From Cystobacterineae bacterium (GTDB lineage Bacteria; Myxococcota; Myxococcia; Myxococcales; Myxococcaceae): a stretch of 64,000 nucleotides of DNA. Numbering within the stretch: position 1 is the stretch's first letter; every line of letters begins with the position of its first letter. Of the stretch, positions 1 through 59,098 are shown in pieces. Under the pieces are notes generated by a model. That model did no database searches, was not told the origin of the DNA, and saw nothing but the letters and a program-made list of their open reading frames with translations. The stretch covers positions 1 to 64,000 of the forward strand of contig WRKR01000009.1 of assembly GCA_009782175.1 (NCBI GenBank). Direction: 5' to 3'. A program made the position numbers and the translations under genes.

Positions 1-309
1 TGAGCCCCGCAGGGCCCTCGGAGAGTGGCTTTTTTTGGTTACTTTTTTTGTCCAGACAAAAAAAGTGACTCGCCGGGAGGCGAAACCTCCCCCCGCTGAA
101 AGCGAAATGAGCCGGGCCGCAGGCCCCCTCTGAAAAACAACCCTTGCCAAAAACCCTTCGCCGGAGGCGACAAAAAAAACCTATTTAAAATGCCCGCCGC
201 CAGGCGAAAAAACAAAACCAACAGCGAAAAAACTCTCCTGAAGTATTTTGCTTCCTCAAACAAACAAAGAATGCTATATTCTTTTTGCTGCGCAAAAAAC
301 GCGGTTGGG

Positions 310-457
310 CCTCGAAACCCCAGTTAAATTTAAAGGTGGCGGGAGCCACCGGGAGATGCCGAGTGGCTCGTTGCTTTTGAGCCCCCGGTTGACCCGGTGG
401 CCTGAGCGGGAGGCCGTAAGGCCTGCCGGTTTTTTCCTTTAAATTTGCCGGTTTCGA
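310..457. repeat. Large nested palindrome with internal hairpins
   Basis: The outer arms are CTCGAAACC (about 311-319) pairing with GGTTTCGAG (about 450-458), a 9-base perfect match. After a small asymmetric loop, AAATTTAAAGG (326-336) pairs with CCTTTAAATTT (436-446). Inside are GGTGGC-GGGA-GCCACC (6 bp closed by a GNRA-type loop), GGCTC...GAGCC, CCGG...CCGG, and AGGCC-GTAA-GGCCT (5 bp with a second GNRA-type loop) followed by a T run. It could be a structured RNA, a miniature mobile element or a transcription terminator. The pairing is read directly from the sequence; the function is unknown. Confidence 0.55.
407..435 (+). terminator. Hairpin plus T run inside the palindrome
   Basis: CGG-G-AGGCC, the tetraloop GTAA, then GGCCT-G-CCG is followed by six T. 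The stem is 8 pairs with one G-G mismatch. This is the layout of an intrinsic terminator on the plus strand, but no plus-strand gene ends just before it, so it may instead end a small RNA or belong to the repeat. Confidence 0.35.
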
Positions 458-557
458 GCTCGTTTAGGCCACCCTGTGGGTGGTTGCGCGAGTTTGCCCA
501 GCTTCTCCCTTGGAGGGCAGCATTGCTGTTCTACTTTTGCAGACGGAGGAGCGGTTA

Positions 558-935
558 ATGCGTGAAGGAAAATTCAACGAAGGAAACTTAAACCAAGGAA
601 ATTTTTTAAACGATGCTGAGCGCCGGTTGCTTTGCGGCATAGGCGCCATTTTGGAAGTGCTCAGAGCAGAAGGTTTTGAAGAATCCGCCTTTGTGGCGCA
701 AAAAATTTCTACTCTGCTTAAGTGGCCAGGCGGTGGCGTGCACCTGGAAGACATTTTCACCGTGCTGTGTGACGCCATAAAAAAAGAGCACGCTTGCATA
801 ACAAAATATTTGAGCTCCCTCTTGGGAATGCTGAACGAGTCCATTGCTGAAGCCAAAATGCAAGCCAAAAAGGAAGCCCTGCTGCTGTTTTTCCCTGAAG
901 CCACGTCGAAGCAGCCCACCGGAAAGCGGAGCTGA
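558..935 (+). CDS. Hypothetical protein upstream of an ArsR-type regulator
   Basis: A 125-residue protein I do not recognise. The start at 558 is chosen because GGAGGAG lies at about 545-551, whereas the longer open frame from 480 has no ribosome binding site. The N-terminus is Asn/Gly rich (GKFNEGNLNQGNF) and the rest looks helical, with Cys, His and Lys scattered through the middle (GVHLEDIFTVLCDAIKKEH). No signal peptide or membrane segment is evident. Its stop is two bases before the ArsR-type gene at 938, so the two are almost certainly co-transcribed. It may be a partner or target of that regulator, but nothing in the sequence proves it. Confidence 0.6.
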   Translation: MREGKFNEGNLNQGNFLNDAERRLLCGIGAILEVLRAEGFEESAFVAQKISTLLKWPGGGVHLEDIFTVLCDAIKKEHACITKYLSSLLGMLNESIAEAKMQAKKEALLLFFPEATSKQPTGKRS

Positions 936-937
936 GC

Positions 938-1213
938 ATGAAAAACGACGAAGCCTTAAAAATGTTGAAGCTGCTGAGCGGTGCGGTGCGCCTCAAAATA
1001 TTGCGAGCCCTTGCCGAGAGCGAAAAAAACGTAGGCGAGTTGGCGCGCATTGCGCGTGTGTCAAGCAGCACGGCCTCTCAGCAGCTGATTGTGCTGCGCA
1101 AAAGTGGCGCGGTTGCGAGCAGAAAAAGTTCGCCGATGGTTTTTTATTCCCTTGCTGACGAGAAAATTTCTGAACTCCTCAAAACATTGGAGCGGCTATA
1201 TGCACCGAAATAA
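938..1213 (+). CDS. ArsR/SmtB-type winged-helix transcriptional regulator
   Basis: This 91-residue protein has the ArsR fold. An N-terminal helix with VRLKILRAL is followed by VGELARIARVSSSTASQQL, the helix-turn-helix with the recognition helix at about residues 39-50, and by a wing ending SPMVFYSLAD. The family represses operons and releases DNA on binding metals or other signals. The usual CxC metal ligands in the recognition helix are absent, so it probably does not sense arsenic or cadmium that way. GGAG at about 927-930 sits eight bases before the start. The small unknown gene ends two bases upstream, suggesting an autoregulated two-gene operon. A palindromic element begins 26 bases after the stop. 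Confidence 0.85.
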   Translation: MKNDEALKMLKLLSGAVRLKILRALAESEKNVGELARIARVSSSTASQQLIVLRKSGAVASRKSSPMVFYSLADEKISELLKTLERLYAPK

Positions 1214-2028: not shown

Positions 2029-3192
2029 ATGGAAGTATTCAAAAAGAAAGCAGTTTGGCTGAATGTGGTTATATTCAGCTTGTTTGCAGCTTGTGCGGAA
2101 ATGGGGGAAGGCGAGGCCTTTTGGGGTGGCGAAGAGGCGGCCGTTTTAGAAACTGGAGAGGCGGCCGTTTTGGAAACTGAAGAGGCGGCGGCTCTGGAAA
2201 CCGGGGAGGAGGTGGATTTTGAGGGCAGGCTTCCTGACATAAACAGTGCTCTCCTTAATCCATTGGATATATTTAGGCTATTCTCTACCACCACTGTTAC
2301 AACGGTTGCAGGCGGGCCAAATTCTAAAGCATTTATTGGCCTTGGTGGCATTGTGAGGGATGCATCCGGCAATCTCTATGTGGTGGATAATGGAGCTCGC
2401 AAAATACTCAAGGTTTCTCCTTCAGGAGTTATCTACACCTTTGCCGGAAGTGGCAGAAGCGGCTCTTCCAATGGCCAGGGAAGCAGTGCGCAGTTTTCAT
2501 TGCTTCACGGCATCGCGATAGACAAGGCGGGCAATCTTTATGTGCTGGATGAAAGCAGCAGCAACAGTAGGATCCGAAAAATCTCTCCGTCGGGCTATGT
2601 CAGCACCTTTGTCGATATCAATAGAAATCCTCTCTTGTTTAACAATTCTCACGGCATCGCCGTGGATTCGATGAACAACCTCTATGTGACAACGGCGACA
2701 GGCATCCAAAAAATTACACAAATAGGTACATTCCTTTTAAGCCCAATAGGAATGAACAGCCAATGGATTGATACGTCTTCGATTGCCTCACCTGGGGCCA
2801 TCACCATCGACAAGGATGACAAACTTTATGTGATCTCCAATTACAACAGCATCTATAGGGTGGTGGGGAAGGGAGTTATGTGCGTCTTGTGGGGCGGCTC
2901 GGGAGCAGCTGAACCGCTCTGGGGTTATGGTATTGTTGCAGATACAAAAGGAAACCTTTATGTGACGGATGTAACCAGGCACCGAATTCTAAAGCTTACT
3001 CCTGGGGGATTTGACACCATTGTCACTCCCCTTGCCGGAAGTAGCAGGTGGGGCTTTGTTGACGGTGCTTCTGGCACGGCACAGTTTCATGCCCCTAGTG
3101 GCATCACAATGTCAGGCAACACCCTCTATGTGACGGAAGAGAACAATAAGGCCATTCGGAAGATCTATCTGGGCGGCGAAGATCTTCGCTAA
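2029..3192 (+). CDS. NHL-repeat lipoprotein
   Basis: A 387-residue secreted lipoprotein. The N-terminus has lysines, a hydrophobic stretch and a lipobox LFAAC with the cysteine at residue 22. Next comes an acidic Ala/Glu-rich linker made of three 8-residue repeats (EAAVLETG and variants), then NHL-type beta-propeller repeats from about residue 85 to the end. The repeat units carry the signature GIAIDKAGNLYVLD followed by a basic strand such as RIRKISPSG. NHL propellers usually mediate binding or act as scaffolds; the ligand here cannot be told. AAAAAGGA at about 2012-2019 supports the start. It is followed by a strong terminator and then by a larger lipoprotein with the same repeat type, so the two are probably paralogues. 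Confidence 0.8.
   Translation: MEVFKKKAVWLNVVIFSLFAACAEMGEGEAFWGGEEAAVLETGEAAVLETEEAAALETGEEVDFEGRLPDINSALLNPLDIFRLFSTTTVTTVAGGPNSKAFIGLGGIVRDASGNLYVVDNGARKILKVSPSGVIYTFAGSGRSGSSNGQGSSAQFSLLHGIAIDKAGNLYVLDESSSNSRIRKISPSGYVSTFVDINRNPLLFNNSHGIAVDSMNNLYVTTATGIQKITQIGTFLLSPIGMNSQWIDTSSIASPGAITIDKDDKLYVISNYNSIYRVVGKGVMCVLWGGSGAAEPLWGYGIVADTKGNLYVTDVTRHRILKLTPGGFDTIVTPLAGSSRWGFVDGASGTAQFHAPSGITMSGNTLYVTEENNKAIRKIYLGGEDLR
2134..2205 (+). repeat. Three in-frame 24-base tandem repeats
   Basis: The unit beginning GAGGCGGCCGTTTTAGAAAC occurs three times with a few substitutions and encodes EAAVLETG, EAAVLETE and EAAALETG just after the lipobox of the NHL lipoprotein. The unit length is a multiple of three, so copy-number change would lengthen or shorten the linker without a frameshift. 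Confidence 0.8.
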
Positions 3193-3204
3193 TAGCCCCA
3201 TCCC

Positions 3205-3240
3205 AAGCCCTGCATGCCACCGCGTATGCAGGGCTTTTTC
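3205..3240 (+). terminator. Rho-independent terminator of the NHL lipoprotein gene
   Basis: AAGCCCTGCAT pairs perfectly over 11 bases with ATGCAGGGCTT across a 10-base loop and is followed by TTTC. It begins 12 bases after the lipoprotein stop codon. Confidence 0.85.
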
Positions 3241-3670
3241 TAATACCTTCACACATCCACCCAGGGGATATGCTTGAGCCTCGCATAACTCGCCATCGGC
3301 CCCCTTCAACCTGAAACCCCTCTAAAGCCCGCGACATTTTTGAGCACAGCCCTTGGGTATACTTTCATTGAAGCAGACTGTGGGTGTTTTCAAAGCAACA
3401 GGCCTTGACAACTTGTTGCAGAGCAACACGCAGAATAAAGTTTGGGTTTATTCATTCTTAACTTCGAATTATCTCAGGATACACTTGCCTAACTCAATAA
3501 AATAAAACAGGTTTTTCATTTTCAAAAGTATTTTGTTATTTCAAGGGAAACTTTTTTGAAAATGAGACGACCATTAAATGTGCGTGTAATTCTAAGAAAA
3601 CACACATGTAGTTTTTTGTATTTGGTTTTTGCAGTATAATACCAACGAAGAACAGAAAAGAGGATGGAAA
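3241..3670. other. AT-rich upstream region of the BACON/NHL lipoprotein
   Basis: No gene is supported here. The last 200 bases are AT-rich and carry a good -10 element close to the next gene. An open frame that would begin at TTG 3629 overlaps that promoter, so it is not used as the gene start. Confidence 0.45.
3612..3640 (+). promoter_or_regulatory. Probable sigma-70-type promoter of the BACON/NHL lipoprotein gene
   Basis: A perfect TATAAT stands at 3635-3640, about 30 bases before the ATG at 3671. The -35 region (TTTTTT at 3612-3617, 17-base spacing) is weak. The position implies a transcription start near 3647 and a short leader containing the AAGAGG ribosome binding site. Confidence 0.45.
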
Positions 3671-5926
3671 ATGGGCGTCATACAAAGAAAAAAAGAAGAA
3701 AAAATGGACGTTGCCGAAAGGCAACGTTTTGTTGTTTATGGTGTGTCAATGTTATTGTCCCTGGCCTTTTGGGCCTGCGGACCTGAGAAGGACGACGACG
3801 ACAACCCAGAGCTCCGTGTGGATTTGGCCAGCCTTCATTTTGGCGTGTCAGCCAACCAAACAAAAAGCTTCCACATTTTCTCCAACACGGATTGGAGCCT
3901 CAGCACAAACGGTGCAGATTGGCTCAGTGTGGAGCCAAGCTCCGGCAATGGCAACGCAGAGGTGAGGGTGACGGTGTTGCAAGCCAACACAGGCAGCACC
4001 GAGCGCTCTGCCCAGGTGCTGATAACGGCCGAAAACCTCCAAGAAACAGTAGCCATAACACAGTCTGCACCTGGGCTTGGGCCTGAGCTCCGTGTAGACA
4101 GGACCAGCCTGGATTTTGATGCAGAAGCAGGCAGTGCAACGTTGATATTGCAATCCAACACGCCATGGAGCGCAAGCTGCAGTGAAAACTGGTGCAGTTT
4201 GGATATGGCTTCCGGCAGTGGCAACAGAACGGTGACGGTGAGCGTGTCGGCAAACACCAGCGCGGACGACCGCTATGCCACGGTGGAGATAACAGCCGAA
4301 GGGCTTGAGCCTCTAACCGTGAGCATTATGCAGCGCGCCTTCAACTCGGAACTCAGCGTGAACCCTCAAAGCCTTCACTTTGCTTCGGGAGACACAGCCT
4401 CCAACAACTTCAATGTTTCTTCCAACATGGCTTGGAGTGTGAGGTGTACACAGGACTGGTGCACGGTGAGTGAGGAGCTGACTCAAGGCAGCCACAATGG
4501 CACGGTGAGGGTGACGGTGCAGCGAAACGACGGCACCACCGAGCGCTCTGCGGATGTGATTGTTGCAACAACAGGCAATGCGAATGAAAGAATGGTGCGT
4601 ATAACACAGGCCCCCATCATGCCCACCATCAGCAGCTTCAGCCCCACCCAGACGGGCTATGGTGCTGAAATGACTATTTATGGCAGCCATTTCAGCGACG
4701 TTAGAGCAGAAAATGTGGTGCGCTTGGGCAGTGTAGAAGTTCCTGCGGGCAATATTACCTTCGCGTCGCCCACCACCATCCGGTTGACCGTTCCTTCAAG
4801 CAGCCTCTGCAGGGTGGGCACCACCACTCCCTGCACCGGTCGTGTGCAAGTGACGGTGAATAGAAAAACCGTCACCTCCACGGGCACCTTCACCTATGTG
4901 CTGACCGGAACGGTGAGCACATTTGCCGGCAATGGCACGTCAGGCCTTGTCGACGACGCGATGGCTGCTGCGCGGTTTCGCTATCCTAAAGGCATCGCTA
5001 TAGACCCATTATATGGCCATCTCTATGTGGCGGATAGCGCTAACAATAGCATTCGCAGGGTAACAACAGCTGGAGTGGTTAGTACTTTTGTCCTCGGGAC
5101 GGGTGGTCTGAATGTCCCTAGTGGTGTCAACATTGTTTCAATGAGCGCCCTCTATGTAGTGGACAAGTATAGTCACCGCATCCGCCGCCTAACACCATCA
5201 TCTATCTGCTCATCCATGCCGGGCTCAGTGGCCTCCATATGGAACTGCATACTCCCCTCCATTTCCACGATCGTCGGTGGTGGCAGCAATGGCTATACTT
5301 CAGGCTTTGCTGACAGCAGTGGAACCAATGCACTGTTTTCCTATCCTTCTGATATCGCAATAGATTCAGAGGGAAATCTCTATGTGACGGATACCCAGAA
5401 CCACTGCATTCGCAGAGTTTCATTGACCAACGCGGTCACCACACTTGCCGGTAACTGCAGGAATGCAGGTTTTGCTGATGGCACGGGAGCGGTCGCACGG
5501 TTTAATGAGCCTCATGGCATCACCATCGACTCAGCAGGCAACCTTTATGTGACTGACACCGTCAACCACCGCATCCGCAGAATAACACCAGGCGGAGCGG
5601 TCACCACCATCGCTGGCAGTGGCACTGCAGGCCATCTCGACGGCACGGGGACTGCCGCACGGTTTTATTATCCTAGTGGCATCACCAGAGACTCCGCGGG
5701 CAACCTCTATGTGGCGGATGAATATAACCACCGCATCCGCAGGGTGAGCTCGGCAGGCGTGGTTAGCACCATCGCCGGCACCGCTACAACAGGTCTTGTC
5801 AACGGCGTTGGAAGTGTTGCGCGGTTTAATCGTCCTTATGGCGTCGCAGTAGATGCCGCAGCCAACAACCTCTATGTGACAGATGGCGATAACCACGCCA
5901 TCCGCAGAATAGCCTTGGAAAGATAG
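3671..5926 (+). CDS. BACON-IPT-NHL repeat surface lipoprotein
   Basis: A 751-residue lipoprotein. The start at 3671 is chosen because AAGAGG precedes it and a TATAAT box lies between it and the more upstream TTG. The lipobox is LAFWAC with Cys about residue 36, followed by a short acidic run. Three BACON-type Ig-like domains follow at about 47-133, 139-224 and 227-313 (hallmark: NTDWSLSTNGADWLSVEPSS). An IPT/TIG domain (PTISSFSPTQTGYGAEMTIYG) spans about 316-411. From about 414 to the end are NHL propeller repeats (GITIDSAGNLYVTDTVNHRI). BACON domains are common in Bacteroidetes carbohydrate-binding proteins; a glycan- or surface-binding role is inference. It is followed by two hairpins ending transcription. 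Confidence 0.85.
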   Translation: MGVIQRKKEEKMDVAERQRFVVYGVSMLLSLAFWACGPEKDDDDNPELRVDLASLHFGVSANQTKSFHIFSNTDWSLSTNGADWLSVEPSSGNGNAEVRVTVLQANTGSTERSAQVLITAENLQETVAITQSAPGLGPELRVDRTSLDFDAEAGSATLILQSNTPWSASCSENWCSLDMASGSGNRTVTVSVSANTSADDRYATVEITAEGLEPLTVSIMQRAFNSELSVNPQSLHFASGDTASNNFNVSSNMAWSVRCTQDWCTVSEELTQGSHNGTVRVTVQRNDGTTERSADVIVATTGNANERMVRITQAPIMPTISSFSPTQTGYGAEMTIYGSHFSDVRAENVVRLGSVEVPAGNITFASPTTIRLTVPSSSLCRVGTTTPCTGRVQVTVNRKTVTSTGTFTYVLTGTVSTFAGNGTSGLVDDAMAAARFRYPKGIAIDPLYGHLYVADSANNSIRRVTTAGVVSTFVLGTGGLNVPSGVNIVSMSALYVVDKYSHRIRRLTPSSICSSMPGSVASIWNCILPSISTIVGGGSNGYTSGFADSSGTNALFSYPSDIAIDSEGNLYVTDTQNHCIRRVSLTNAVTTLAGNCRNAGFADGTGAVARFNEPHGITIDSAGNLYVTDTVNHRIRRITPGGAVTTIAGSGTAGHLDGTGTAARFYYPSGITRDSAGNLYVADEYNHRIRRVSSAGVVSTIAGTATTGLVNGVGSVARFNRPYGVAVDAAANNLYVTDGDNHAIRRIALER

Positions 5927-10973: not shown

Positions 10974-11979
10974 GCCTTTGAACGGTTTATTCTCTTTAAG
11001 CCAAGGAAAACACTTGCTTTCTTTTGAGAAAGCCTTGTGCAATGCCTATATAAAATTGAATTTAAGCAAAGAGCGCCTCTTGTTGGCTGTTTCAGGGGGG
11101 GCTGACTCTCTGGCTTTGTTGCTTGCTACTTGGCGTATTTCCTCAAAACTGGCTTTGCATATGGAGGTAGCCAGTGTCGATCATGGCTTGCGAGAGGAGA
11201 GTGCGGAAGAAGTGGCTTTTGTCCAGGCGCTTTCAAAGAGGCTGGGCGTTGCGTTTCACACACAGCGTCTGAATATATGCGGACAGGTAGCGCTGGAAGA
11301 AGAGGCGCGTCGTCTGCGTTATGCTGCTTTGGAAGAAATTCGCCAGCGCCAGCGCCTCCACTTTGTGGTGACGGCGCACACGGCCTCGGATCAGGCCTGC
11401 ACCTTGTTGATGAAGCTCAGCCGGGGGGCAGCGCTCAGGGGTGCCAGGGCCATTTGGCGACGGTGGGGCTATGTGGTGCGCCCCATGTTGTCCATGAGGA
11501 GAGCAGAGGCAGAGCATTATGTAAGGCAAAGCGCCTTGTCACCCGTCATGGATGCGATGAATGAGGAGCAGCGCTTTTTTCGCGTCAGAATGCGACGTGT
11601 GGTGCTCAAGGCGCTTGAAAACGTCGCCGGCAAATCCGCAACCCTTCATTTGGCTCAGTTTTGTCAATATGCGGACGAAGACGAAGCCTTTTTGCAACAC
11701 CAGGCCTTGCAGGCACTTCAAAACATCCACGTGTCACCTGCAACTTTGGATGCCATGGCCTTTCTTTGTTTAGAAAAACCTTTGCAGCGTCGGATTTTAG
11801 CTGCATTCCTTGGCGAAAATGGCTTGGAAATCAACGCCAACTCCATTGAAAATTCCATGAGGGCCATCCAAACAAAAAAAAATGCGACTTTGGCGAAAGA
11901 TCGCCTTCTCAAAGTTGAAAAAGGACTTATCTTCATTGCAGCAGCCCCACCGCGCAAGAAACGTTGCAAGAAAGGCTGA
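10972..11979 (+). CDS. tilS: tRNA(Ile)-lysidine synthase
   Basis: A 335-residue enzyme of the PP-loop ATPase family. LAVSGGADSLALL (about residues 38-50) is the ATP pyrophosphatase signature, followed by DHGLREES and VTAHTASDQACTLLMKLSRG. TilS joins lysine to C34 of tRNA(Ile) CAU so that it reads AUA; it is essential in most bacteria. The C-terminal lysine-rich end is typical. The start is uncertain: the ATG at 10972 overlaps the end of a 15-base tandem array and has no ribosome binding site, while an in-frame TTG at 11014 has AAGGA (11003-11007) six bases before it and would give 321 residues. It precedes ftsH, a common pairing. Confidence 0.9.
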   Translation: MPLNGLFSLSQGKHLLSFEKALCNAYIKLNLSKERLLLAVSGGADSLALLLATWRISSKLALHMEVASVDHGLREESAEEVAFVQALSKRLGVAFHTQRLNICGQVALEEEARRLRYAALEEIRQRQRLHFVVTAHTASDQACTLLMKLSRGAALRGARAIWRRWGYVVRPMLSMRRAEAEHYVRQSALSPVMDAMNEEQRFFRVRMRRVVLKALENVAGKSATLHLAQFCQYADEDEAFLQHQALQALQNIHVSPATLDAMAFLCLEKPLQRRILAAFLGENGLEINANSIENSMRAIQTKKNATLAKDRLLKVEKGLIFIAAAPPRKKRCKKG

Positions 11980-24114: not shown

Positions 24115-24145
24115 GCCGCTTTCACTTAGAACTGATTTGATTATC

Positions 24146-24378
24146 CAGACCGGTTTCAATTGAGGCAAGCTAAAGCTTGCCTGCACTCCGCTCCATGAAG
24201 GAAGAAAAAGCATGCTTTCTCAAACTGATTCCTGGAGCGGAATAGACGAGCGAAGCGAGTCTCACGAAGAGATCATGTCAAAGCGGAGCGTAGGGAAGAA
24301 TGCGAGAGCGAAGCTTTCGCATTCTTCCTGGAGCGTAGTGCAGGCGAGCTTTAGCTTGCCTCAAGTGAAACCGGTCTA
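24146..24378. repeat. Palindromic intergenic element, copy 2 (long form)
   Basis: The left end AGACCGGTTTCAATTGAGGC and the inverse of the right end AGACCGGTTTCACTTGAGGC extend to about 36 bases of near-perfect terminal inverted repeat, including AAGCTAAAGCTTGCC. Positions 24234-24283 are identical to 1483-1532 in copy 1. An internal palindrome AGAATGCGAGAGCGAAGC...TTCGCATTCT lies near 24298-24328. It lies between the convergent guaB and lipoprotein genes, and its last three bases are the TAG stop of the minus-strand gene. Confidence 0.8.
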
Positions 24379-44294: not shown

Positions 44295-45426
44295 AAAACG
44301 GATGTTCGCAAACTGGCCGTGGAGTTTGATTGGCTCCATGTTGCTTATTGCTGTTATTGGTTTGTGGAACATGGCGTCTGCTTCGCGTGCGTCTCATGCA
44401 CCTTTGGCAGGTGCTCAAGCCACGTTTCTTGTGGTGAGTTTGGTTGCGGCCATCATCGTTGCCTTGTTGGACTATCGCTGGGTTCGGCGCATGGTTGTGC
44501 CTGTTTATTTTCTCAATTTGGCTGCTTTGGTTGCGCTGAGGTTTTTTGGACATCAAGCCAAGGGAGCCACGAGTTGGTTTCTCATTGGACCGTGGAGTGT
44601 GCAGCCTGCCGAATTTATGAAGCTGAGTTTGGTGATGATGTTGGCAAAGTTATTTCATGACGACTTTAAGCCAGAATCTCCAACCTATGGTTTTAGGCGG
44701 TTGTTGATTCCAACCATCGTCACTCTTGTCCCAGCAGTGCTTATTTTGAAGGAGCCTGATTTGGGGACAACGCTGATGATGCTTCTGACAGCGATGAGCA
44801 TGATGGTGTTTGCCAAGCTCCGGTGGACGGTTGTTCTCACATTGTGTTTGGCGGGAATAGCTGTTGTGGGTGTTTTGTGGAATGATTATGTTCGAGAACA
44901 GTCTGAGCCACGATGGACTCTTGTCCGTCGAGGCTTGAAACCTCACCAGGATGTTCGCGTTTCAGGGTGGCTTTCTCCGGAGACAGACTTGCGCGGGGCA
45001 AATTATCACCAACACCAATCGCGCATTGCTGTTGGCTCCGGTGGTTTAACTGGAAAGGGTTGGCAAAGAGGCTCTCAATCGGGCTTGCGCTATTTGCCGG
45101 AGCAGCATTCGGATTTTATTTTTTCGGTGTGGGCAGAGGAACAAGGCTTTGTCGCTTGCCTGGCTTTAATCATCTTATATGGAATTGTTTTTGTTTCCAT
45201 TCTGCTGGTGGCTTATGGCTCGAGAGATCGCTTCGGTGCATTTGTGGCCGTTGGGTTTTCCGCAATGTTGTTTTGGCAGATTTTTGAAAACATTGGCATG
45301 GGAACGGGGCTTTTGCCTGTGACAGGAATAACGCTTCCCCTTTTTTCATATGGAGGCAGCTCCATGCTGAGCACCATGCTAGCGATGGGTCTGCTGATGA
45401 ACATCAGCATCAACCGACGTCGCTAA
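44278..45426 (+). CDS. rodA: Peptidoglycan polymerase RodA
   Basis: A 382-residue SEDS-family glycosyltransferase with about ten membrane spans. Signatures include ATSWFLIGPWSVQPAEFMKL, LILKEPDLGTTLMML, NYHQHQSRIAVGSGGLTGKG, YLPEQHSDFIFSVWAEEQGF and GTGLLPVTGITLPLFSYGGS, all standard for RodA/FtsW. Position after the PBP2 gene identifies it as RodA. The start overlaps the PBP2 stop by 17 bases. Immediately after its stop comes a short palindromic element, then the convergent lpxB. Confidence 0.95.
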   Translation: MKVRIEKRMFANWPWSLIGSMLLIAVIGLWNMASASRASHAPLAGAQATFLVVSLVAAIIVALLDYRWVRRMVVPVYFLNLAALVALRFFGHQAKGATSWFLIGPWSVQPAEFMKLSLVMMLAKLFHDDFKPESPTYGFRRLLIPTIVTLVPAVLILKEPDLGTTLMMLLTAMSMMVFAKLRWTVVLTLCLAGIAVVGVLWNDYVREQSEPRWTLVRRGLKPHQDVRVSGWLSPETDLRGANYHQHQSRIAVGSGGLTGKGWQRGSQSGLRYLPEQHSDFIFSVWAEEQGFVACLALIILYGIVFVSILLVAYGSRDRFGAFVAVGFSAMLFWQIFENIGMGTGLLPVTGITLPLFSYGGSSMLSTMLAMGLLMNISINRRR

Positions 45427-45427
45427 G

Positions 45428-45494
45428 CCGCTTCCACTTTGACATAACCTCTTCGTGAGGCAAGCTAAAGCTTTCCTCAATTGAAACCAGTCTG
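45428..45494. repeat. Palindromic intergenic element, short form (rodA/lpxB junction)
   Basis: CCGCTTCCACTTTGACAT, then CTCTTCGTGAGGCAAGCT, and CTCAATTGAAACCAGTCT are the two ends of the long element joined with almost no interior. It begins two bases after the rodA stop. A second, poorer end (TTTGAACCAGCCTAG, about 45509-45523) follows, whose last three bases are the lpxB stop. Confidence 0.75.
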
Positions 45495-45520
45495 GAGAAT
45501 CAATTCAACTTTGAACCAGC

Positions 45521-51956: not shown

Positions 51957-52009
51957 CAGAAGCTCTTCGTGAGGCAAGCTTTAGCTCGCCTCCATTGAAA
52001 CCAGTTTGG
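51940..52009. repeat. Palindromic intergenic element, short form (lpxK/DUF58 junction)
   Basis: GACCGCTTCCCCTTTGACAG, CTCTTCGTGAGGCAAGCTTT and CCATTGAAACCAGTTTGG match the short copy at 45428 closely. The first 17 bases are the end of the lpxK coding region including its TGA. The convergent DUF58 gene stops five bases after the element. Confidence 0.75.
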
Positions 52010-57644: not shown

Positions 57645-59098
57645 AGCTCATCTAAAAACTCATCATTATAGGTATAGCGAGACAGACGTTTTATCAATGC
57701 TTCCATGGCTTCGACGGGTTTGACTTGAAAAAGCATTTGTCGGAGTTTTTTAATTTTCTCATATTCTTTGAATGACAGCAGTTTTTCTTCTTTGCGCGTG
57801 CCTGACTGCGCAATATTCACCGCTGGCCAGATACGTTTTTCTGCCAACAACCTGTCGAGGGTAATTTCTAAATTGCCGGTGCCTTTAAACTCTTCGAAAA
57901 TGACTTCATCCATTCGGCTGCCGGTGTCGATGATGGCAGTTCCAATAATGGTGAGTGTGCCGGCTTCTTCTGTTGCGCGAGCTGCGCCAAAAATACGTTT
58001 TGGTCGTTCAAGAGCGCGCGAGTCCACGCCACCTGTGAGTGTTCTCCCGGAGGAGTCGACTTCTTTGTTGAATGCGCGTGCCAGTCTGGTGATCGAGTCC
58101 AACAGCACAACAACATCTCTTCCGCTTTCTGTCATTCGGCGAGCTCGTTCCAGTGCGAGCTCTGCTACTTTGAGGTGGTCGGCCGCATGCCGGTCTGAGC
58201 TGGAAGCGAGGACTTCAGCCTGAATGCTGCGGCGCATGTCGGTAACTTCTTCTGGGCGTTCATCCACGAGCACAACCATAATGTGTGTTTCTGGATGGTT
58301 GACGAGAAGTGCTTGGGCAATGCGTTGCAGCATGATGGTTTTGCCCGTCTTGGGAGGTGCAACAATAAGAGCGCGCTGCCCTTTGCCAAGTGGTGCAATC
58401 AAGTCTAACACGCGCGTTACCATTTCTCTGTGAGAGTGCTCGAGTCTCAATTGCTCAATGGGGTCGATGGAGGTGAGATCTTGAAAATGAGGAAGCCTTG
58501 TCGCTTGCTCCAGGGGAAACCCTTCTACCATGTCAACACGTTGGATAATTCGCTTGTTGCCTTTGGCGAGTGCCTGAGCAGAAATATATTGGCCGGGGCG
58601 CAGTTTTAGTTTTTGGACAAGGTTTTTGGGCAACTCAGGATCATCCCCTCCGGGAAGCAAGTTGCGTTTCAGTTGTCGCAAAAAAGCGTTGGGGCCTTTT
58701 ACGTCAATGTCAAGCACGCCTTCGACAGTCACAACAGGTGAAGGTACATTTTCAGAGGGAGTGCGTTGTGTCTGTTGCTGGAGAACCCGTTGTTGGTGTT
58801 GCTGCAATTCCTGTGGTGTCAAAAAAACCTGGACGCGTTGCCCATCCGGCTGAACAACCATGCGATAGGCTTGTCCGTCGGGAGAGAAGAGGATGGGGTT
58901 GTTTTTGCGGCGCCTGCGTTTGCGTTTTCGCTTTGAGTTTGAAGAAGGTTGTGTTTCTGCTTCGTCGTCACCCTCTGCATCATTGCCTTCGTTTTCTGCA
59001 GGCGCTGGGGCATTTCCCTGGGGAGTGGTTTCCTTTTCAGGAGTTGTTGGGTCCTCAGGCTGGGACTGAAAATCTGTATCGTCAGAAGAGTCATTCAT
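57641..59098 (-). CDS. rho: Transcription termination factor Rho
   Basis: A 485-residue hexameric RNA helicase. The first 65 residues are a disordered acidic tract followed by a basic patch (KRKRKRRRRKNN), before an RNA-binding domain (about 115-190). The ATPase core has IVAPPKTGKTIMLQRIAQ (Walker A, about 246-263), VLVDERPEEVTDMRRS, LLDSITRLARAFNKE, TGGVDSRALERPKR and IWPAVNIAQSGTRKEEKLL. The primary RNA-binding region departs from the usual GFGFLR (here KGPNAFLRQLKRN). It is the promoter-proximal gene of the rho-B-box-DUF4129-DUF4350-MoxR-DUF58 run. Confidence 0.95.
   Translation of the reverse strand: MNDSSDDTDFQSQPEDPTTPEKETTPQGNAPAPAENEGNDAEGDDEAETQPSSNSKRKRKRRRRKNNPILFSPDGQAYRMVVQPDGQRVQVFLTPQELQQHQQRVLQQQTQRTPSENVPSPVVTVEGVLDIDVKGPNAFLRQLKRNLLPGGDDPELPKNLVQKLKLRPGQYISAQALAKGNKRIIQRVDMVEGFPLEQATRLPHFQDLTSIDPIEQLRLEHSHREMVTRVLDLIAPLGKGQRALIVAPPKTGKTIMLQRIAQALLVNHPETHIMVVLVDERPEEVTDMRRSIQAEVLASSSDRHAADHLKVAELALERARRMTESGRDVVVLLDSITRLARAFNKEVDSSGRTLTGGVDSRALERPKRIFGAARATEEAGTLTIIGTAIIDTGSRMDEVIFEEFKGTGNLEITLDRLLAEKRIWPAVNIAQSGTRKEEKLLSFKEYEKIKKLRQMLFQVKPVEAMEALIKRLSRYTYNDEFLDEL

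Follow-up and report, generated by a model that had tools for sequence, protein, structure and literature searches.

The window analysed here is the 64,000-nt stretch formed by positions 1 to 64,000 of contig WRKR01000009.1 of a Cystobacterineae bacterium, and its nucleotides 310-457 form a nested palindrome; the question raised by this locus is whether the palindrome belongs to a structured RNA, to a mobile DNA element or to neither. The window is contig 9 of the 65 contigs of a 2.70-Mb genome (G000), which we compared with two genomes of the same genus (G001 and G002) and with more distant relatives; the host is a close relative of termite-gut myxobacteria. Our data show that the element is wider than the palindrome, which is the middle of a leader of about 270 nt (about 283-557) that precedes a gene for a 125-aa protein and is one of a family. 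We consider it very likely that a small operon has this element as its 5' leader and that the leader contains a divergent C4-type antisense RNA, which would pair with two targets, a1 and b1, and keep the first gene, ORF1, low. The operon has the order promoter-like sequence, 5' hairpin, a1, b1, spacer hairpin, C4 (b', a'), ribosome-binding site, ORF1 and ArsR-type gene (Table 1).

Table 1. Features of the leader and its operon, in window coordinates.
Feature	Position	Strand	Basis
Promoter-like sequence: weak -35-like TTCCTC (252-257), extended -10-like TGC-TATATT (272-280)	252..280	+	Read from sequence
5' hairpin near the inferred transcript start	287..305	+	Conserved; compensating changes by eye in relatives; P1 equivalent by eye
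a1, target of the a' arm (CTCGAAACC)	311..319	+	Complementary to 450-458; order as in annotated P1 a1
b1, target of the b' loop (AAATTTAAAGG)	326..336	+	Complementary to 436-446; order as in annotated P1 b1
Spacer hairpin with short T tract in the b1-C4 interval, possible weak terminator	343..378	+	dG -17.5; tail GTTGCTTTT
C4-type antisense RNA	390..479	+	RF01695, 39.3 bits at 396-473, E 6.3e-6; model R1, 77.6 bits (the copy is itself in the R1 training set)
b' antisense loop of C4, paired part	436..446	+	Pairing letters, P1 comparison
a' antisense arm of C4	450..458	+	Pairing letters, P1 comparison
Conserved 3' leader segment with hairpin	496..540	+	Matches at eight further G000 places
Shine-Dalgarno-like GGAGGAG	545..551	+	Read from sequence
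ORF1, 125-aa protein, predicted helical, family without assigned function	558..935	+	No Pfam or PHROG match
AAGGAAAA, ORF1 codons 3-5, complement of TTTTCCTT in the b' loop (432-439)	565..572	+	Weak candidate for a second target; no copy specificity
ArsR-type winged-helix protein, second gene	938..1213	+	PF01022, 43.8 bits

The outer stem is maintained through compensatory change

The segment 300-470 folds with -83.8 kcal/mol, whereas 200 dinucleotide-shuffled versions average -64.9 (sd 4.6) and none of them folded as well (z -4.10); the nested palindrome reported in an earlier note on this DNA is thus real and not a product of chance. Its outer stem of 9 + 11 base pairs was found as described there, with CTCGAAACC (311-319) paired to GGTTTCGAG (450-458) and AAATTTAAAGG (326-336) paired to CCTTTAAATTT (436-446). 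Two GNRA loops had also been proposed: the GTAA loop (GGCC-GTAA-GGCC, within 390-479) is real, while the GGGA hairpin (GGTGGC-GGGA-GCCACC, 335-350) is possible, but the best fold employs GCCACCGGG otherwise. The run of six T that had been noticed behind one hairpin is read here as part of the b' loop of C4 and not as a terminator tail.

Four further copies of 300-470 are present in G000 (83-88% identical), and the alignment of the G000 copies shows a leader that runs from the 5' hairpin to the start codon of the gene. Both sides have changed in 9 of the 95 predicted pairs in the alignment of five G000 copies, all nine in the two outer arms. The outer stem is maintained through compensatory change, and the covariation on which the proposal of a structured RNA had been made to hang is therefore present. 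A faint likeness of arm TCGAAACC to another repeat family is probably due to chance, because other copies have different letters there; that other family, inverted repeats with GACCGGTTTCAATT-like arms, lies in the window at 1240-1560, 24133-24377, 45423-45507 and 51972-52009. Readings of 1-700 as a riboswitch, an intron or a tRNA found no support from Rfam or ARAGORN.

Homology to C4 antisense RNA

The whole window gave no Rfam match at the gathering threshold, and C4 emerged only with the use of relatives and a permissive threshold. The curated cut-off of the C4 family (RF01695) is 45 bits; the window copy falls below it, and 5 of the 35 matches in the genus pass it with 45.2 to 49.1 bits. 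One relative from G001 or G002 lies above this cut-off (45.2 bits), and others match C4, c4-a1b1 and isrK below cut-off. The isrK model (RF01394) matches 287-373 of the window weakly (14.6 bits) and its best relative with 33.9 bits, both below the cut-off of 50. Matches to RF01695 were found in 3 of the 60 related genomes, 17 in G000, 3 in G001 and 15 in G002, and none were found in 14 control genomes.

Our own model, R1, was built from 35 copies. With an E limit of 0.01 it has 40 hits in the three genomes (19 in G000, 5 in G001 and 16 in G002), with scores down to 30.9 bits. No hit came from the remaining 192 of the 195 phylum genomes when the E limit was 1e-4 and filtering was tighter, a setting at which weak matches are lost. 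R1 also recovers the C4 of P1 at its annotated place (31.3 bits) and that of SfV (49.8 bits), so that homology to C4 is seen whichever of the two families supplies the model, and joins covariation in bearing out a structured RNA. Testing the Rfam structure of C4, as transferred via one relative, over the 35 copies, we found its 26 pairs to be paired in 93.8% of 893 cells and changed on both sides in 12 of the 26, with 0 of 500 shuffles as high on either measure; further pair types were not in excess (181 of 500 shuffles). The outer stem is formed by the C4 antisense arms paired with the targets a1 and b1, as the annotation of P1 has them, and the order in the window matches that of P1 (a1, b1, C4, a2, b2, icd) up to C4.

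Some further candidates did not hold up: cmscan found C4 in none of 3 pattern matches in viral contigs, and one of the matches in genome contigs (L116) also lacks C4. Phage DNA similar to the leader of one relative amounted to 9 records covering at most 15% of the query, and a protein scan of genome contigs found no relative.

Arms and targets co-vary copy by copy

Following the naming used for P1, the loop is called b' and the other arm a'. Pairing was computed for the copies found by RF01695, 34 of the 35, with g2C3b (61 nt upstream) left out; the five other R1 matches (two each in G000 and G001, one in G002) lie outside this set. Summed over both arms, pairing energy is -24.6 kcal/mol with a copy's own target and -14.9 with foreign targets, and this own-target sum was reached by 0 of 10,000 permutations. 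The own target is the best one in 30 of the 34 copies (15 of 17 within G000, 14 of 14 within G002); C12 has lost its pairing, and for the three others a foreign target is better by 0.3-1.3 kcal/mol. When the arms are scored one by one, the b' loop pairs at -13.8 kcal/mol with its own target vs -7.0 with foreign ones, and in 28 of 34 copies no foreign target beats its own; the a' arm pairs at -10.8 vs -7.8, and its own target is unbeaten in only 12 of 34. Paired arms are retained in 33 of the 34 testable copies, C12 being the exception, despite most letters differing; no two copies have both extracted arms identical, although the loop is shared in 3 pairs of copies and the a' arm in 10. By this computation arms and targets co-vary copy by copy.

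The pairing could be cis-only, and the leader might be purely cis-acting, with the outer stem serving as a structural helix of an attenuator or riboswitch from which C4 is never released. A strong and co-varying outer helix is what such a leader would have, and the corresponding cis pairing in the IsrK locus is itself described as the silent state in the relevant passages of PMC4825925. We consider this improbable all the same, as the C4 body matches phage C4 RNAs and has its own fold with compensatory changes, which competes with the best cis fold. Unlike a ligand-binding core, the arms also vary more than their surroundings: in 11 close pairs of copies, 130 of 532 aligned positions (24%) have changed in the arms compared to 197 of 1662 (12%) elsewhere, with 2 of the 11 pairs showing the opposite and with a Fisher p of 1.1e-11 that is overstated because the 11 pairs overlap.

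Second target and terminator

In an operon of the P1 type, second targets a2 and b2 lie around the ribosome-binding site. The 34 copies show no copy-specific excess of P1-type a2/b2 there: downstream of C4, no copy-specific complementarity was found by energy (-8.31 vs -8.29 and -8.67 vs -8.59 kcal/mol) or by the length of the best exact match (5.09 nt vs 5.06 and 4.59 nt vs 4.38). Run on P1, the energy test makes b2 visible (-11.7 vs a mean of -6.0) and a2 not (-9.2 vs -8.8), and is thus a weak control for a2; only the exact-match test reveals both, with 8 and 7 nt.

Matches of 7-8 nt within 110 nt downstream occur in 6 of 34 copies and are A-rich in four. One of them is that of the window, where 8 nt of the b' loop match inside ORF1 and the best match of a' is 4 nt. 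The letters of 565-572 pair in copy C33a; in C44 they do not, its gene start being identical and its loop different. The absence of a2/b2 makes the P1 route, in which the ribosome-binding site is covered, less likely, and the match at 565-572 leaves that route open for the window copy. A terminator-like hairpin, by the criterion that describes 343-378, was present in 15 of 34 copies and was not found in 19; attenuation is thus unsupported across the family.

The promoter-like sequence of the window has similar counterparts, judged by eye, in the G000 copies except C12, C14 and C22, and TTGACA..TTAAT stands at this position in several G001 and G002 copies. A consensus scan for promoters found no promoter-like site.

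The genes behind the leader

In 33 of the 35 copies C4 is followed, at a distance of no more than 110 nt, by the start of an ORF of 90 aa or longer, the exceptions being g2C30, which is cut by the contig end, and g1C205. ORF1 of the window has no match in Pfam or PHROG, no protein of its type was found in phages, and no homologue of icd or of the antirepressor gene ant was recognised downstream. It is 40% identical to the ORF1 of an island at a tRNA-Lys gene (see below), and a profile of eight ORF1-type proteins, run on 60 genomes, matches three, which all belong to this genus. The combination of ORF1 and an ArsR-type gene occurs in the window and in copy C33a, and other C4 copies precede other small proteins. 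ORF1 is predicted to be helical with low confidence (AlphaFold on one sequence, mean pLDDT 58), which makes the fold search against the PDB (best E 2.1) meaningless. Past the module, window positions 2029-5926 encode two large proteins, the first with NHL repeats (Pfam) and the second NHL-like by eye.

The genes bear on a second alternative, namely that C4 is a fossil of phage immunity, now functionless and in neutral decay in a repeat-rich genome. Decayed copies do exist: C15 is degenerate (44.1 bits, positions 12-76 only), the copy at C1:99220 consists of the 3' part only and has a stop in its gene, and C12 lacks the pairing. Neutral decay is difficult to reconcile with the retention of paired arms in all other testable copies or with the open reading frames that follow C4, and dN/dS is below 1 in 18 of 18 pairs. 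For nine ORF1 genes compared within two groups these values are 0.35-0.91, with 13 at or below 0.52 and no significance test attached, and the ORF1 of the window has 0.35 compared to C33a and 0.39 compared to C44. We therefore regard a fossil as quite improbable.

That the palindrome is a REP-like or folded single-strand mobile DNA element, as the earlier note alternatively proposed, is highly implausible, for although palindromic repeats lie just upstream (window 1-230) and upstream segments of more than 60 nt are common to most G000 copies, nine G002 copies as well as C12 and C28 have the leader without shared upstream segments, what is conserved stands before a gene as its leader in 33 of 35 copies, and the sequence here has the make-up of a leader, with a promoter-like sequence and C4 RNA and then a ribosome-binding site and an open gene, even if one related copy lies within an integrative island.

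Proposed mechanism and known systems

The reading as a leader with a C4-type antisense RNA implies a transcript that would start at the 5' hairpin and from which C4 would be cut by analogy with P1 (mechanism in PMC8198154), where this is done by RNase P; processing of phage C4 by RNase P is reported in PMC11143913 and PMC5320573. The window C4 has GGT at the expected 5' end of its stem. Once released, C4 may pair with a1/b1 of its own or of sister transcripts. Because targets and arms have changed in step, the control exerted by each copy would fall chiefly on the operon to which it belongs. There are two potential ways in which ORF1 could be kept low: first, by premature termination, and second, by holding the leader in an untranslatable fold, comparable to the P4 CI RNA and the IsrK locus, for which silencing by termination or a silent fold is reported in the relevant passages of PMC4825925.

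Phage P1 silences genes of its own with C4. The C4 RNAs of P1 and P7 (RF01695) share with the copies described here the fold with a GNRA-like hairpin, two antisense arms, a small gene directly downstream, and a1 and b1 about 80 nt upstream in identical order. The family differs from the c4-icd-ant operon of P1 in lacking copy-specific second targets and a recognised icd or ant, and in its many chromosomal copies. The IsrK/orf45/AnrP locus of Gifsy-1 (RF01394) is similar in its succession of 5' hairpin, target-bearing hairpin, spacer hairpin and complementary segment, and isrK and C4 adjoin each other in SfV; here, the isrK cut-off is missed, the genes are others and the terminator-like hairpin was not found in most copies. 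In P4 (seqA-CI-seqC) the CI antisense RNA is cut from a leader and has an upstream target (PMC4825925), as proposed for the copies here; no downstream seqC-like target was found in them.

C4 RNA itself is already known, best from P1, and is listed for Proteobacteria and phages in Table 1 of PMC2864571. Chromosomal C4-like RNAs are known from Acinetobacter baumannii, where the Group 1 sRNAs comprise 21 in one genome with a variable a' loop, and where reads begin at a GG motif, as if processed (PMC5320573). There they are treated as sRNAs whose upstream stem-loop resembles P1 only to a limited extent, and the passages concerned mention neither co-varying a1/b1 nor downstream genes (PMC5320573). 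A full-text search for C4 antisense RNA in myxobacteria listed one paper, which is on phage P1. Apparently new, within the literature searched, are whole C4 operons multiplied in a myxobacterial genus, with co-varying targets, no copy-specific second target and an attached protein family.

Forty matches in three small myxobacterial genomes amount to a natural experiment in which an antisense RNA and its target change specificity jointly, and the family bears on how many antisense-target pairs are able to coexist in a cell. That no second target lies at the ribosome-binding site raises the question of the silencing route, and the attached small proteins, which had no Pfam or PHROG match where searched, could be candidates for growth inhibition or antirepressor action.

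Genomic surroundings

Among 18 flanking proteins given to Pfam, nine of them picked as recognisable-looking, 11 look like housekeeping proteins (MnmA, a succinate-dehydrogenase-type Fe-S protein, GatB, AlaS, SMC, CDP-alcohol phosphatidyltransferase, GpsA, GHMP kinase, SerS, endonuclease III and SecA) and the other 7 are one primase, four proteins with repeat or VIT-type domains and two without a domain. A PHROG scan of 45 flanking proteins gave 61 mixed families, with primase, endolysin and enzymes among the matches listed, and neither proves nor excludes phage remains.

Copy C28 lies in an island of about 7.4 kb (locus L127, 10167-17647, G000 contig 28). In it tRNA-Lys and an integrase are succeeded by a 279-aa protein and a Prim-Pol/DUF3987 primase; C4 comes next, then two ORF1-type genes and, as seen by fuzzy match, a repeat of 17 nt from the 3' part of the tRNA. 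The module follows integrase and primase at a tRNA gene, and we take the island to resemble a P4-type satellite without structural genes. Its integrase and primase have no match in the window contig, which begins 395 nt before C4. An integrase-primase element beside tRNA-Leu (L140, G000 contig 19, 16000-30000) has a primase 43% identical to that of contig 28 and gave no C4 match. In G001 contig 188 (L146, 2281-3560) a C4 copy stands ahead of an ORF1-type gene and of an integrase-like fragment that contains a stop, which gives the look of a decayed island.

A further reading takes the C4 operons as a bank of mutually insulated modules, descended from tRNA-integrating satellite-like elements, whose two-arm addresses would be under selection to differ and whose C4 RNAs would silence incoming elements with matching a1/b1, an RNA-based repertoire of host immunity. 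This reading is supported by the fact that no copies share both arms and that the arms change about twice as often as the rest in close pairs. The island target is paired by its own C4 at -29.6 kcal/mol, compared to -20.0 for the best other C4 of G000 and -21.0 for the best of all, and that no other C4 of the set matches it speaks against a bank, as do the maintained downstream genes, needless for immunity alone; we consider it unlikely.

The contig upstream of C4 is shorter than 700 nt in 14 of 17 G000 copies, probably because shared palindromic repeats break the assembly. Dense palindromic repeats with tracts such as GGTTACTTTTTTTGTCC lie upstream of many G000 C4 copies, as at window 1-230 and L128 8680-9600. 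Two C4 copies have a 5' half seemingly replaced by similar foreign sequence (G000 contig 15 near 58342-58404 and L141 near 11500-11900), one of them near what is presumably an IS110-type transposase-like gene. C4 modules also stand by the same housekeeping genes with different small proteins in G000 contigs 22 and 35 and G002 contigs 60 and 27 (in G002, GatB and PssA were identified with Pfam; CinA and the genes of G000 were recognised by eye), as if modules had been exchanged at fixed sites in two species.
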